Assembly (NCBI GenBank): GCA_021299855.1
Contig: JAJTEY010000006.1
Span: 1-35,453 of the forward strand
Direction: 5' to 3'
DNA from: Bacteroidota bacterium
GTDB lineage: Bacteria; Bacteroidota; Bacteroidia; Palsa-965
DNA: 35,453 nucleotides
Shown: piece by piece, positions 2,604 to 10,502 of the stretch
Layout of the letters: each line of letters starts with the position of its first letter
How positions within the stretch are numbered: the first letter of the stretch is position 1
The notes under the pieces: generated by a model
What the model was told of the DNA's origin: nothing
The model's database searches: none
The model's input: only the letters and a program-made list of their open reading frames with translations
Translations under genes and position numbers: made by a program

Positions 2604-2990
2604 CTAGTTAAGTCGATAACCACTAATAAGTTGGAAACGCGGAATGGTTACCTGAAATTCCTTGTTATCGGCAGTGCGCAGAAACGTATAAATGCCGTGC
2701 ATGCTTCCGATTTCTGTGGTCAGGTTACATGCAGATTCATACGTGTATGATTCTCCCGGCAGCAATTCCGGTTGCTGACCTACAACACCTTCACCTTCCA
2801 CTTCGTGTTTATTTCCTGATGAGTCAAAAATAAACCAGTGACGACGCAGCAATTTCACGGTGTAATCACTTTTATTCTCAATTTGGATACGATAAGAAAA
2901 GAAGTAATGATGCTGTTCCGGACGCGAATACAACGGTTGATAGTTGCTATCAACACTAACCTGAATGCCGTTTGTTACTTCTGTAATCAT
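2604..2990 (-). CDS. apaG: ApaG domain protein (Co2+/Mg2+ efflux-associated family)
   Basis: The 128-residue protein matches the ApaG family over its full length. It has an N-terminal EVTNGIQVSVDSNY strand, the YRIQIENKS and LLRRHWFIFDSSG strands, the diagnostic GEGVVGQQPELLPGESYTY segment, and the GSMHGIYTF motif near the C-terminus. ApaG is a fibronectin-III-like beta fold linked by genetics in enterobacteria to cobalt/magnesium resistance; its biochemical role is not settled. It lies 69 bp downstream of the plug gene on the same strand. One arm of the 32-bp inverted repeat (3047-3078) sits just ahead of it, so its transcription probably depends on that upstream region. Confidence 0.93.
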   Translation of the reverse strand: MITEVTNGIQVSVDSNYQPLYSRPEQHHYFFSYRIQIENKSDYTVKLLRRHWFIFDSSGNKHEVEGEGVVGQQPELLPGESYTYESACNLTTEIGSMHGIYTFLRTADNKEFQVTIPRFQLISGYRLN

Positions 2991-3046: not shown

Positions 3047-3078
3047 GGTTTTAACAAAGTTACTGTTGACGTGAATTC
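3047..3078. repeat. Right-hand arm of a perfect 32-bp inverted repeat (3' end of plug gene)
   Basis: Bases 3047-3078 are the exact reverse complement of 3691-3722. The match stops sharply on both sides: 3046 does not pair with 3723, and 3079 does not pair with 3690. This arm covers the last codons of the plug gene (LNSRQQ stop) and 13 bases beyond the stop. The segment between the arms is 612 bp. Confidence 0.95.
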
Positions 3079-3698
3079 AGCATTTTGTAACCGATGAGTT
3101 CGTCGATAAATCCGCCTTGTCTTCGGTAGTACACCAGAATCATATATTCATTTTCCGTTTGCGGTTGATAATTCCAATTGGAGAAACTTCCAAACACATA
3201 CATATTGCCGCCTTCCACAGGCATATCATAACTCAGGAAGAAATGCACCCACACATAATCCGCATCAATTTCGCTGTCCGTTCCCTGATATGTTTTCACC
3301 ACGTAACGACCATTGATGTCCGGATTATTCATGTATCGTTTGAATCCGCGTTTTTCATCGGGCATGAGATAGACATGAAACAAACCATTTTCTTTAGCAA
3401 CCGATGCCACACGTTCTCCCTGATAAATCATGCTGCGTGTATCCAGCCAACGATATTCTTTCCCACCGGGAAAAACATTGATGTCGTCATAGTCGTACAC
3501 CAATTCATTATCTTTTAAGAATTGTGGTTGTAATCCGATTTTAGCATTGTCCCAACGTCCGTTTTGCATCACTACCGGTCGGATTTCCTGAAACGGATTT
3601 ACGATTACTCCGGTAGCATACGAGATATTAAAATCTACTTCCTGTTTAAAGTTGCGATCCTGCACAATAGTAGCTGCGTGCACGGAACCGGAATTCAC
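3060..3698 (-). CDS. T9SS plug protein (DUF5103), C-terminal fragment of a broken gene
   Basis: This fragment carries the C-terminal two thirds of a DUF5103 / type IX secretion plug-domain protein. It contains the family-like segments NPFQEIRPVVMQNGRWDNAK and PDINGRYVV, the stretch ADYVWVHFFLSYDMP, and the closing ENEYMILVYYRRQGG and NSRQQ stop. It begins at a GTG (3696-3698) inside one arm of a perfect 32-bp inverted repeat, in a different frame from the upstream half. The two halves overlap by 4 bp. From my recollection of the family, about seven to eight residues (the RF-VY-type strand after PVLTK) are missing at the junction, so a deletion rather than a single-base slip is likely. It has no signal peptide of its own, so it is unlikely to work unless the frame is restored. 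Confidence 0.75.
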   Translation of the reverse strand: MNSGSVHAATIVQDRNFKQEVDFNISYATGVIVNPFQEIRPVVMQNGRWDNAKIGLQPQFLKDNELVYDYDDINVFPGGKEYRWLDTRSMIYQGERVASVAKENGLFHVYLMPDEKRGFKRYMNNPDINGRYVVKTYQGTDSEIDADYVWVHFFLSYDMPVEGGNMYVFGSFSNWNYQPQTENEYMILVYYRRQGGFIDELIGYKMLNSRQQ

Positions 3699-3722
3699 GT
3701 CAACAGTAACTTTGTTAAAACC
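3691..3722. repeat. Internal arm of the same 32-bp inverted repeat, at the frame break of the plug gene
   Basis: These 32 bases are the exact reverse complement of 3047-3078. The arm lies where the plug gene changes frame. It holds both the premature TGA (3695-3697) of the N-terminal fragment and the GTG (3696-3698) that opens the C-terminal fragment. A perfect match of this length between unrelated parts of one gene is not expected by chance. Confidence 0.95.
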
Positions 3723-4198
3723 GGATGTTCTTCATCGCCGTCCACAAAAACTTTCAGCAGGTAATTTCCCGAGAACAGAAACTTCGCATTATCATCCGGA
3801 ATTTGAATTTTATAGTGTGTGAATTTTTGCAATGTAGTTCTTGAAAAGCTGTACGAAGTAATCGGATAGGTAGCGAAGCCATCTAAGTATTCTGAAAGTA
3901 ACACGTTACTCGGTTTCCAGTCCCAGGTACAATGCACAATGGAATAATTGTAGTTTTTGAAATCACCATCCAGATCATCAAACTGCAACCATAACTTATC
4001 TGTGGTATTTAAGCGCAGAAAAGCATAGGTAGGCACTTCGGGATCGGGACTCAACAAAACGGTATGAATGTTTTTACGATACGCGTAATCTTCGTAGCGA
4101 ATGCCGCTGGTGGAATAGTAATCGTCTTCTTCGTTCTGCGCTTGCATTACATTGGCTAGCACGAATAACAACAGGGTAAGAAGTCCTTTAAGATTCAT
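3695..4198 (-). CDS. T9SS plug protein (DUF5103), N-terminal fragment of a broken gene
   Basis: This 167-residue piece starts with a signal peptide (MNLKGLLTLLLFVLANVMQA). It continues through the conserved first domain of the T9SS plug family: LRLNTTDKLWLQFDDLDGDF, then YNYSIVHCTWDWKPSNVLLSEY, then HYKIQIPDDNAKFLFSGNYL. After the family-like DGDEEHPVLTK it reads LLLT and stops at a TGA inside the internal arm of the inverted repeat (3691-3722). The rest of the protein follows in another frame at 3060-3698. No slippery heptamer of the X XXY YYZ type is present at the break, so programmed frameshifting is not supported. An indel, a template-switch mutation and an assembly error remain possible. 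An intact member would be about 400 residues. Confidence 0.8.
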   Translation of the reverse strand: MNLKGLLTLLLFVLANVMQAQNEEDDYYSTSGIRYEDYAYRKNIHTVLLSPDPEVPTYAFLRLNTTDKLWLQFDDLDGDFKNYNYSIVHCTWDWKPSNVLLSEYLDGFATYPITSYSFSRTTLQKFTHYKIQIPDDNAKFLFSGNYLLKVFVDGDEEHPVLTKLLLT

Positions 4199-4280: not shown

Positions 4281-5078
4281 ATGAATACTCCGGAACAGAA
4301 GAAAGAGGCTTTTGCACGACTTTTAACCATCATGGATGAGTTGCGGGAGCAATGTCCGTGGGATAAAAAGCAAACGCTGGAAAGTTTACGTCATCTCACG
4401 ATAGAAGAAACGTACGAACTGGCGGATGCGATATTGGTTAATGATCTTGACGGGATTAAAAAGGAATTAGGCGACGTGATGTTGCACCTGGTGTTTTATG
4501 CACGCATAGCATCAGAAACGGGACATTTTGATATTGCCGATGTTTTGCACGCGCAATGTGAAAAGTTAATTCGTCGTCATCCGCATATCTATGGTGATGT
4601 AAAAGTGGAGAATGAGCAACAGGTGAAAGAGAATTGGGAGAAGATCAAACTCAAAGAAAAGGACAGCATAACAGCCGGAGGATTTCAGTCGGTGTTAAAC
4701 GGTGTTCCTGTTTCCTTGCCGGCAATGGTAAAGGCTTGGCGTATTCAGGAGAAAGCTCGTGCTGTGGGATTTGATTGGGAAGAGCCGCATCAAGTATGGG
4801 ACAAAGTGAAGGAAGAGCTGGACGAATTGCAGGCAGAAGTGCAGCAGAACGCAGCACAGGAACGCCGTGAAGAGGAGTTTGGTGACGTGTTGTTTGCTTT
4901 AGTGAACTATGCGCGTTTCATCGGCGTTAATCCGGAAGATGCTTTGGAACGCACCAATAAAAAATTCATCAAACGATTTCAATATTTGGAACAAGCGTCA
5001 CAAGCCGACGGTAAGAAACTCGGTGAAATGTCTTTATCCGAAATGGACGAATATTGGGAACGCGCCAAAAGGATGTAA
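4281..5078 (+). CDS. mazG: Nucleoside triphosphate pyrophosphohydrolase MazG
   Basis: The protein hydrolyses NTPs and dNTPs to the monophosphate and pyrophosphate, acting as a house-cleaning enzyme. Its 265 residues match the two-domain MazG family. The N-terminal domain has CPWDKKQT, EETYELADAI and the metal-binding ELGDVMLHLVFYARIA segment. The C-terminal copy has KVKEELDELQAEV and EEFGDVLFALVNYARF. The second copy keeps its EExxE/ExxD residues, as in active MazG proteins. It is divergent from the plug gene (82-bp gap) and ends 2 bp before the stop of the convergent multicopper oxidase gene. Confidence 0.95.
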   Translation: MNTPEQKKEAFARLLTIMDELREQCPWDKKQTLESLRHLTIEETYELADAILVNDLDGIKKELGDVMLHLVFYARIASETGHFDIADVLHAQCEKLIRRHPHIYGDVKVENEQQVKENWEKIKLKEKDSITAGGFQSVLNGVPVSLPAMVKAWRIQEKARAVGFDWEEPHQVWDKVKEELDELQAEVQQNAAQERREEEFGDVLFALVNYARFIGVNPEDALERTNKKFIKRFQYLEQASQADGKKLGEMSLSEMDEYWERAKRM

Positions 5079-7377: not shown

Positions 7378-8424
7378 TTATTTGTCGCGATTCATCAGCC
7401 ATTTAGCAACGGCCGGCGCTAATTCTTTTTGTGAACGATTACCCACGAAAACACCAATGTGTCCGCCCGGGAATTTATACAATTCGTGATCTTTTGAACC
7501 GATGTGGTCGTTTAAGGGAATGGTTGCTGCAGGCGGCACTAAATGATCTTCCGTAGCGTAGATATTTAAAACCGGCATGGTCACATTTTTCAATTTCACT
7601 TTCACGCCATCCACTTCCAGTTCGCCTTTCACCAATTTATTTTCCTGGTACAAATCTTTAATAAACTGACGGAAACATTCTCCGGCCTGATCAGGACTGT
7701 CGTTGATCCATTTCTCCATGCGGAGGAAGTTCATCATCTTGTCCTTGTCGTCCAGCAAATCGGGAAAACTGTTGAATTTGTTCACCTTCATCATGGGCTT
7801 CAACATGCCGAAACCGTTATTCAAAAATTCGCCCGGTACGTTGCGGTGAACGTCAACTATGCGATCAATGTTCAATTTGCGTGACCAGCGGAACAACAAG
7901 CCGTCATTGGTAGAGAAATCAACCGGCGTAACTGTAGTAATTAAGTTTTTGATTTTCTCCGGATATAAAGCCGAATAAATAATACTTAATGTTCCACCCT
8001 GACAAACGCCCAGCAAATTCACTTTGTCAAATCCGTGCGACTTACGAACGAAGTCAACAACATCATTGATGTACCAGTTTACATAATCGCTTAAAGTTAA
8101 ATAGCGATCCGCTTTTGTAGGGTAGCCCCAGTCGATTACATAAACGTCAAGCCCCAGATGCAACAGGTTCGCAATAAAACTGCGATCAGGTTGCAAGTCC
8201 ATCATCTCGTAGCGATTTACCAGCGCATACGAAATGATTAACGGAGTTTTGATTGTTGCAGGAGTGTTGCGCACATAGCGATACAGTTTAACTTTATCTA
8301 CTGTGTGCACTAACTCTTTCGGTGTAGTGCCGATTTCAACACTATCCACGTTTACCAGATTGTCATAGCCTTTCGCCATTTTGGCGCCGGCTTCAGCCAG
8401 GTCTTTGATCACTTTCTCGTTCAT
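7378..8424 (-). CDS. phaC: Class III polyhydroxyalkanoate synthase subunit PhaC
   Basis: PhaC polymerises (R)-3-hydroxyacyl-CoA into PHA at the granule surface. Its 348 residues match the short class III (and class IV) PhaC length, not the roughly 560-residue class I/II length. The alpha/beta-hydrolase core has the lipase-like box GVCQGG with nucleophile Cys141. Asp293 (YATEDHLVPP) and His322 (GGHIGVFVG) complete the triad. VYVIDWGYP at about 94-102 is also typical. It lies 24 bp downstream of phaE on the same strand, so the two subunits are co-transcribed. A hairpin terminator follows at 7292-7324. Confidence 0.95.
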   Translation of the reverse strand: MNEKVIKDLAEAGAKMAKGYDNLVNVDSVEIGTTPKELVHTVDKVKLYRYVRNTPATIKTPLIISYALVNRYEMMDLQPDRSFIANLLHLGLDVYVIDWGYPTKADRYLTLSDYVNWYINDVVDFVRKSHGFDKVNLLGVCQGGTLSIIYSALYPEKIKNLITTVTPVDFSTNDGLLFRWSRKLNIDRIVDVHRNVPGEFLNNGFGMLKPMMKVNKFNSFPDLLDDKDKMMNFLRMEKWINDSPDQAGECFRQFIKDLYQENKLVKGELEVDGVKVKLKNVTMPVLNIYATEDHLVPPAATIPLNDHIGSKDHELYKFPGGHIGVFVGNRSQKELAPAVAKWLMNRDK

Positions 8425-8448
8425 AACAATCCGAATAACAGGAATTAA

Positions 8449-9789
8449 TTATGCTGTAGCTGCTTTCTTTTTAGAAGCTTTAACTTCTTTCGCTTCAACA
8501 GCCTCAACGTTCATTTGCTTTTCCAAAGCATAAACACGCTTGCGCAATTCGTAAATGGTGGCATACAAATCGTCAGCTTCGGAACGCAATACCACAGGAA
8601 GATTTTGCATCATTGCTTCAGCAACTTTATCGCTGTTCTGTTTGATTTCCAATTGTAAATCCAATAATTCGCCCTGCAATGCAGAGTAAGCATCGCTTTG
8701 GAATAAACGAGTGTAAGCTTCTTCAGCAGTTGCAATCCACTTCTTGTAAACTTCCTGCGTGTTGCTCATATCAGTTCCGTTCTTGAACAACTCATAGTTT
8801 TCAGTGATGAAACTTTCCCAAGCTTTTGTGCCGGTGTTGTACAAATGTTGTTGGAACTGATAGATCTTGTTTACTGCGATACCTGCTTTTTCAGCCACAG
8901 CAGCCATGTTCTCCTGAACTTCAGTTTCTTTACCCGGATTCACCAAACGTATAACAGGAAGAATCATTTTCTGGAAATAGTTAGCAGTATTTGGAGCTGC
9001 AAAAGAGTTGTATTGAGGTAAATAACCGCGCGTGTTTTCAGGCATTGCGTTTACCCACTGTTCGTATGCATGACGATTGTAGTTGTTCGCCATATCGTTC
9101 CAGTGGTTGATTTGCTGCATCTGTTCGTTAAAGAAATTCGGTGACAAGAAAGCCAAGTTCTTATCCAACATATCCTTGAACATTTCAGGACGGAAATACT
9201 GATTCAGCTGATCCCACTGCACGTTATTCTTGGTCATTGCTTGAGCAAATGGCTGCCACATTTCAACGAAACGCGCATATCCCTGGTTCATGTTGTTCAT
9301 ATCGAACCAAGCGTTTTTCGTAGTAGCGTCGTTCCAGAAATTCATGAATGGAGCGAAAGTGTTGTTAGGCTGATTGAATGCGTTCATCCATTGATTGCGC
9401 ATTTGTTCCATCTGCTTCATGCCGTCGTTCATCCAGCTATTGCCGGTGAAAGAGCTGCTCCAGTTACGGAACATATCGTTCATCTTGTTGTAAGAATCCT
9501 GCTGTTGTTTCATCCACTCGTTCATTTTAGCAGACCATTCTTCAACACCCGACTTTTGTTTGTCGTTAACTGATTTAAACGCTTCAGTAACCTGACCAGT
9601 AGTTGTTTCAGCAGCCTTTCGAGTAAGCTCGTTCTGCTTATTTAGCCACTCGTTGTAAATTTTAGTTCCTTCTTCAGGAGTTTTGCCGGCTGCAATTGCG
9701 TCCTGCATTTTTTTAGATGTTTCCATCCAATTGTTCATGAATTCCTGTTGGGTTTCCATCCAGTTTTCGAAGAAGTTTTTGTTGCTCAT
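8449..9789 (-). CDS. phaE: Class III PHA synthase subunit PhaE-like, enlarged
   Basis: PhaE forms a complex with PhaC and is needed for its activity. This 446-residue protein starts FFENWMETQQEFMNNWMETS. It is rich in Trp, Met, Asn and Gln with amphipathic helices, has no signal peptide, and is followed directly by phaC. Family features include repeated W-x(2-3)-W/M helices and a C-terminal segment PVVLRSEADDLYATIYELRK that leads into a short coiled coil (VYALEKQM). It is somewhat longer than the usual subunit of about 350 residues. It ends in a basic Lys/Ala tail (KASKKKAATA), which recalls DNA- or granule-binding tails of phasin-like proteins. A strong promoter (9851-9881) lies 60 bp upstream. 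Identification rests on composition, C-terminus and context. Confidence 0.85.
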   Translation of the reverse strand: MSNKNFFENWMETQQEFMNNWMETSKKMQDAIAAGKTPEEGTKIYNEWLNKQNELTRKAAETTTGQVTEAFKSVNDKQKSGVEEWSAKMNEWMKQQQDSYNKMNDMFRNWSSSFTGNSWMNDGMKQMEQMRNQWMNAFNQPNNTFAPFMNFWNDATTKNAWFDMNNMNQGYARFVEMWQPFAQAMTKNNVQWDQLNQYFRPEMFKDMLDKNLAFLSPNFFNEQMQQINHWNDMANNYNRHAYEQWVNAMPENTRGYLPQYNSFAAPNTANYFQKMILPVIRLVNPGKETEVQENMAAVAEKAGIAVNKIYQFQQHLYNTGTKAWESFITENYELFKNGTDMSNTQEVYKKWIATAEEAYTRLFQSDAYSALQGELLDLQLEIKQNSDKVAEAMMQNLPVVLRSEADDLYATIYELRKRVYALEKQMNVEAVEAKEVKASKKKAATA

Positions 9790-9850
9790 GGCTAGGTGTT
9801 GTAATTAGTTGTTTTTCAGCGTTTTGAATTCGATTTTAGAATTCAGGGCG

Positions 9851-9881
9851 CAAAGGTACGTATTATTAACTGATTTGTCAA
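9851..9881 (-). promoter_or_regulatory. Bacteroidota-type promoter of phaE-phaC
   Basis: Read on the minus strand, TTG (9879-9881) and TACCTTTG (9851-9858) are separated by 20 bases. This fits the -33/-7 consensus TTG-N19..23-TAnnTTTG exactly. The start of transcription should lie near 9845, giving a leader of about 55 nt. The rest of the 308-bp gap (9790-10097) shows only a poor TATATTTA box at 10072-10079 that could serve the rightward MaoC gene. Confidence 0.7.
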
Positions 9882-10097
9882 GCGAAATCGAATACTTATC
9901 GTAGAATAATGACCTTTAATCCGTAATTATTCCTGTTTTATCGGTTTAGTGTGTTTGATCTTCGAAATGCGAAATAGTAAACACTCGACAAAAATCGAAT
10001 CTGCATGTTGCGCGGTGATCATGTGAATATGGTGAAATCATTAACAATGTCATTGTCGTGATGAAGCTTTCTATATTTACAACAAAACAGAACTCCT

Positions 10098-10502
10098 ATG
10101 ATTGAAGTTGGTACAACTTACACACACAGTTTTTCATTTACGCAGGAAGAAGTAGTGCGCTTTGCGGAAGTTACGGGCGATAAAAATCCGGTTCATTTGG
10201 ATGAAGCATATGCAGCCACTACAATGTTTAAGCGACCTATCATGCATGGGTTTTTAGGCGGCGCAGTATTTTCAAAAGTGTTCGGAACATTGTTTCCCGG
10301 AGAAGGTACTATTTATTTGAAACAGAGCATGGCTTTTATGCGTCCGATGTACGTAGATACGACATACGAAGTGCGCATGACCGTGAAAGAAGTGAATAAA
10401 GAAAAACATCGTGCAACAGTGGAGACGTTAGTTGTAGATGTTGCTTCAGGAGAGACTACAATCAGTGGTGAAGCAACCGTGATGAACGTAACTCAGATTT
10501 AA
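10098..10502 (+). CDS. MaoC-family (R)-specific enoyl-CoA hydratase, PhaJ-like
   Basis: This is a single hot-dog-fold hydratase of 134 residues. The hydratase-2 catalytic motif is present as VTGDKNPVHLDE with Asp28 and His33. Other family signatures are PIMHGFLGGAVFSKVFG and FMRPMYVDTTYEV. Members convert trans-2-enoyl-CoA to (R)-3-hydroxyacyl-CoA. Next to phaEC this would feed beta-oxidation intermediates into PHA synthesis, which is the PhaJ role. It is divergent from phaE. Its stop overlaps that of a small convergent membrane-peptide gene by 4 bp (TTAA at 10499-10502). Chain-length preference cannot be told from sequence. Confidence 0.9.
   Translation: MIEVGTTYTHSFSFTQEEVVRFAEVTGDKNPVHLDEAYAATTMFKRPIMHGFLGGAVFSKVFGTLFPGEGTIYLKQSMAFMRPMYVDTTYEVRMTVKEVNKEKHRATVETLVVDVASGETTISGEATVMNVTQI

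Follow-up and report, generated by a model that had tools for sequence, protein, structure and literature searches.

A perfect inverted repeat in a broken T9SS plug gene: a probable case of replication template switching

Template-switch mutation is established in E. coli (PMC6357072) and in coding genes of yeast (PMC8604942). In the E. coli quasipalindrome mutations, known from lacZ QP reporters and a thyA hotspot, two template jumps at short inverted homologies turn one site into an inverted copy of the other and leave the arms perfect (PMC6357072). In yeast, one arm of an inverted repeat is homogenised inside a protein-coding gene (PMC8604942). The locus described here would have arisen likewise, by two jumps and the homogenisation of an arm within a coding sequence. 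It differs in scale and outcome: the E. coli cases studied are short quasipalindromes of 18 bp (PMC6357072), and those in yeast have arms of 7-16 bp and spacers examined up to 70 bp and mainly produce substitutions (PMC8604942), whereas here a 32-bp arm, a 612-nt spacer and an inactivating frameshift are seen, and the ancestral sequence is unseen. The gene affected encodes the T9SS plug, a partner of SprA that is described as shutting the SprA channel at its periplasmic opening (PMC10202324).

The window, by which we mean the whole 35,453-nt stretch of DNA analysed, belongs to an assembly of 88 contigs that is 72% complete, and all findings on the arms and the broken gene come from a single contig. 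The features on which the argument turns are as follows.

2604-2990, minus strand: apaG, downstream of the plug gene (PF04379, NF003967), with the same synteny in relatives
3047-3078, minus strand: outer arm, putative source of the copy, comprising the last codons (NSRQQ), the stop (3062-3060) and 13 nt of the plug-apaG spacer
3060-4198, minus strand: T9SS plug gene, broken into two ORFs (4198-3695 and 3698-3060)
3159-3164, minus strand: junction left by a further lesion, in which ~144 nt (48 codons) are lost in frame
3691-3722, minus strand: inner arm, putative recipient of the inverted copy, with the frame break, TGA at 3697-3695 and GTG at 3698-3696
4281-5078, plus strand: mazG, divergent upstream neighbour (NF007113), found near the plug gene in several relatives

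The initial annotation had recognised a T9SS plug gene from the letters alone, and profile searches bear this out: the N-terminal half (4198-3698, minus strand) matches T9SS_plug_1st (PF17116, 4.1e-35), both halves match T9SS_plug (NF052315; PMC10202324), and the apaG/mazG neighbourhood is that of related plug genes. Unlike an intact plug, however, the gene matches NF052315 in three pieces (profile positions 1-123, 136-312 and 360-385). With positions 124-135 and 313-359 missing and the frame broken, this is therefore a damaged copy. The first of the two gaps coincides with the inner arm, and it is within this arm that the frame breaks, at TGA 3697-3695, with the next GTG at 3698-3696; the premature stop and the new start thus lie where they had been placed at the outset, and their GTGA overlap (3695-3698) falls where the first plug domain gives way to the second. 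The genome has no other plug match, and at 72% completeness no second intact copy was found in it.

The plug frame is open in ~100 relatives, none of which carries this pair of lesions, and genus and family relatives each have one open plug frame free of internal stops, apart from one family member (genome 62% complete) in which no plug match was found. Comparison with the plug genes of relatives had been proposed in the initial annotation as a check, and the two-arm structure proves absent from them. The nearest same-genus plug genes share ~50-59% protein identity with this one, and there is no relative above 80% DNA identity that could show the pre-event sequence. In one plug alignment, that of an uncultured member of the Prevotellaceae (RUG602, L137), ~27 residues are missing very close to the position that the inner arm occupies here, the result of either a deletion or an assembly error.

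Recomputation reproduced the repeat exactly as first reported: 3047-3078 and 3691-3722 are complementary at 32/32 nt across a spacer of 612 nt, and the sequences flanking the two arms bear no relation to each other. Across a 1.20-Mb sample of the genome there is no other spaced (>5 nt) perfect inverted repeat of at least 18 nt within 3 kb, and the longest spaced inverted repeat in 150 tiles of 6.7 kb from the same genome is 15 nt, which excludes a chance origin. The same uniqueness argues against a repeat family or a genome-wide palindrome artefact, and both were rejected as no second case occurs in the 1.2 Mb. Among 80 related plug loci none has a repeat bracketing half of the plug gene; the few longer perfect repeats in these loci lie at or beyond the gene edge or elsewhere in the locus. 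One of these loci carries, directly after the plug gene of a Saprospiraceae genome, a 36-bp perfect inverted repeat whose arms lie 44 nt apart (L118:3878-3993); it may be a terminator or a palindromic element.

Inverted repeats around a short segment are also the mark of Bacteroidota invertible promoters and shufflons, and a programmed invertible segment, phase-varying the plug between 32-bp sites, had been among the options first listed. A coding segment flanked by perfect inverted repeats fits such a device. The plug locus differs from these systems, however, in that no recombinase or invertase family match is present in the window, related plug genes lack the arrangement, and, with the stop inside the arm, the gene is broken in either orientation; the early remark that inversion alone would leave the frame unrestored holds for the same reason. 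We therefore rejected this option, which is the least credible of those considered. The broken plug looks instead like the product of a one-off copying slip, an ordinary mutation, or possibly of an assembly mistake, rather than a functional device.

Which arm is native can be judged from the proteins of relatives. The outer arm codes for a C-terminus LNSRQQ followed by the stop, to be compared with the same-genus ends NSRLR, NSKVQ, SSRPQ and NSRPQ, and the distance of the stop from the conserved L(I/V)G motif is the same in 4/6 same-genus genes. By tail and stop position, then, the outer arm looks native, in keeping with the initial view of it as the gene's own 3' end. The inner arm, in the downstream frame, reads VTVDVN-SGS-VHAATIV. 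In all relatives but one, the spacing from SGNY to HAATIV is 34-36 residues (36 in 92; the exception is the shortened L137), and it would be 39 here if VTVDVN were native, allowing for a missing RF.V.ENK-like stretch, an excess of 3 residues. In nucleotides, the inner segment is 16 nt short of the family norm, hence the frameshift. Since it is too short at the nucleotide level and too long if taken as native, the simplest account of the inner arm appears to be that the outer arm was copied into it in inverted orientation. It had previously been regarded as a composite with family-like sequence on both sides; of this, PVL(T) is likely native, whereas VTVDVN read as native coding overshoots every relative by 3 residues.

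The copy may nevertheless have run the other way. The gene could first have been broken at the inner site by a deletion between short AACAAAG-like direct repeats, directly yielding PVLTK|VTV, after which the broken inner sequence would have been copied in inverted form over the 3' end. At the DNA level, AACAAAGTTAC occurs at the inner site of L005, at its NKVT codons, as this order of events would have it, and TTGTTAAAA occurs after the stop of L005 and L010; for proof at this level the relatives are too diverged, and 6-9% of control windows also match the shared words. This sequence of events requires two steps, makes a coincidence of the NSRQQ-stop tail and the correct stop position, and leaves a 3-residue excess found in no relative. 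We regard it as improbable.

We consider the best explanation to be a recent, real loss-of-function mutation by replication template switching of the quasipalindrome type, with two jumps, and hold this to be probable. The arms, the frame break, the second gap and the intact relatives are observed directly; we infer that copying took place, that it ran from the outer to the inner arm, and that it happened in a living cell. Midway through the plug gene, the growing strand would have switched to the inverted 3'-end sequence of the gene, copied ~20-32 bases and jumped back; short words, GAATTC and GGTTTT among them, are shared at the edges. The nascent strand may have folded back onto what it had copied earlier or have moved over to the sister strand; either route would suffice. 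An inverted copy of the gene's tail would thereby have replaced the sequence lying between plug domains one and two, leaving a segment 16 nt short, a shifted frame and two perfect arms. Template switching is favoured because one event covers the perfect arms, the net loss of 16 nt and the frameshift, and of the options first put forward, the template switch that carries the 3' end into the gene fits best. Perfect inverted-repeat arms that appear derived, the hallmark of this kind of mutation, are found here (32/32 nt, unique in 1.2 Mb). Counting against it is the spacer, which at 612 nt (~756 nt before the other deletion) is long compared with the yeast limit of 70 bp.

That other deletion had been overlooked. 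Around 3161, 18 residues stand in place of the 64-74 of relatives, corresponding to the missing profile positions 313-359, and this in-frame loss of ~48 codons is absent from ~100 relatives. With a frameshift and an in-frame loss in one gene, the locus is best read as a decaying pseudogene. Alternatively, two lesions in one gene could be a sign of poor local assembly. A chimeric read or false join may have placed an inverted copy of the tail into an otherwise intact plug gene; the metagenome assembly is fragmented, 72% complete and possibly of low coverage, inverted-repeat chimeras are a known library artefact (PMC10908179), the plug of related genomes is invariably intact, and this genome retains the other T9SS components. 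An artefact of this kind would, however, have to strike the same gene twice, separately, and join arms 612 nt apart; no similar repeat exists elsewhere in 1.2 Mb, and the remaining genes of the window are single open frames with family matches. We judge an artefact to be unlikely, though it is the main rival.

Loss of the plug function is likely. The N-terminal piece of 167 codons retains a signal peptide-like start and the first domain, whereas the C-terminal piece, with its putative GTG start overlapping the stop (GTGA), has neither a signal peptide nor the 48 conserved codons. It is conceivable that the copied arm and the GTGA overlap created a gene fission, in which each domain is now produced as a protein of its own, with translation of the two coupled. 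Arguing against this are the lost 48 codons and the absence of a signal peptide from the second piece, and we consider it highly improbable. Among the T9SS parts sampled in the genome, SprA (2439 aa, intact), PorV, GldL and 70 C-terminal sorting domains are present. The secretion system itself is thus probably kept, and loss of the whole T9SS was rejected on the presence of SprA, PorV and GldL.

If the event is real, this uncultured bacterium offers a clean, naturally occurring case of a template switch across a long spacer that knocked out an almost universal gene, which would suggest that the plug is dispensable here, given that the secretion system otherwise looks present. Should the structure be an artefact, it would mean that inverted-copy chimeras can make false pseudogenes in metagenome assemblies. 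Elsewhere in the window, at 7378-10502, PhaC-like and PhaE-like genes (class III polyhydroxyalkanoate synthase) adjoin a MaoC-type hydratase.
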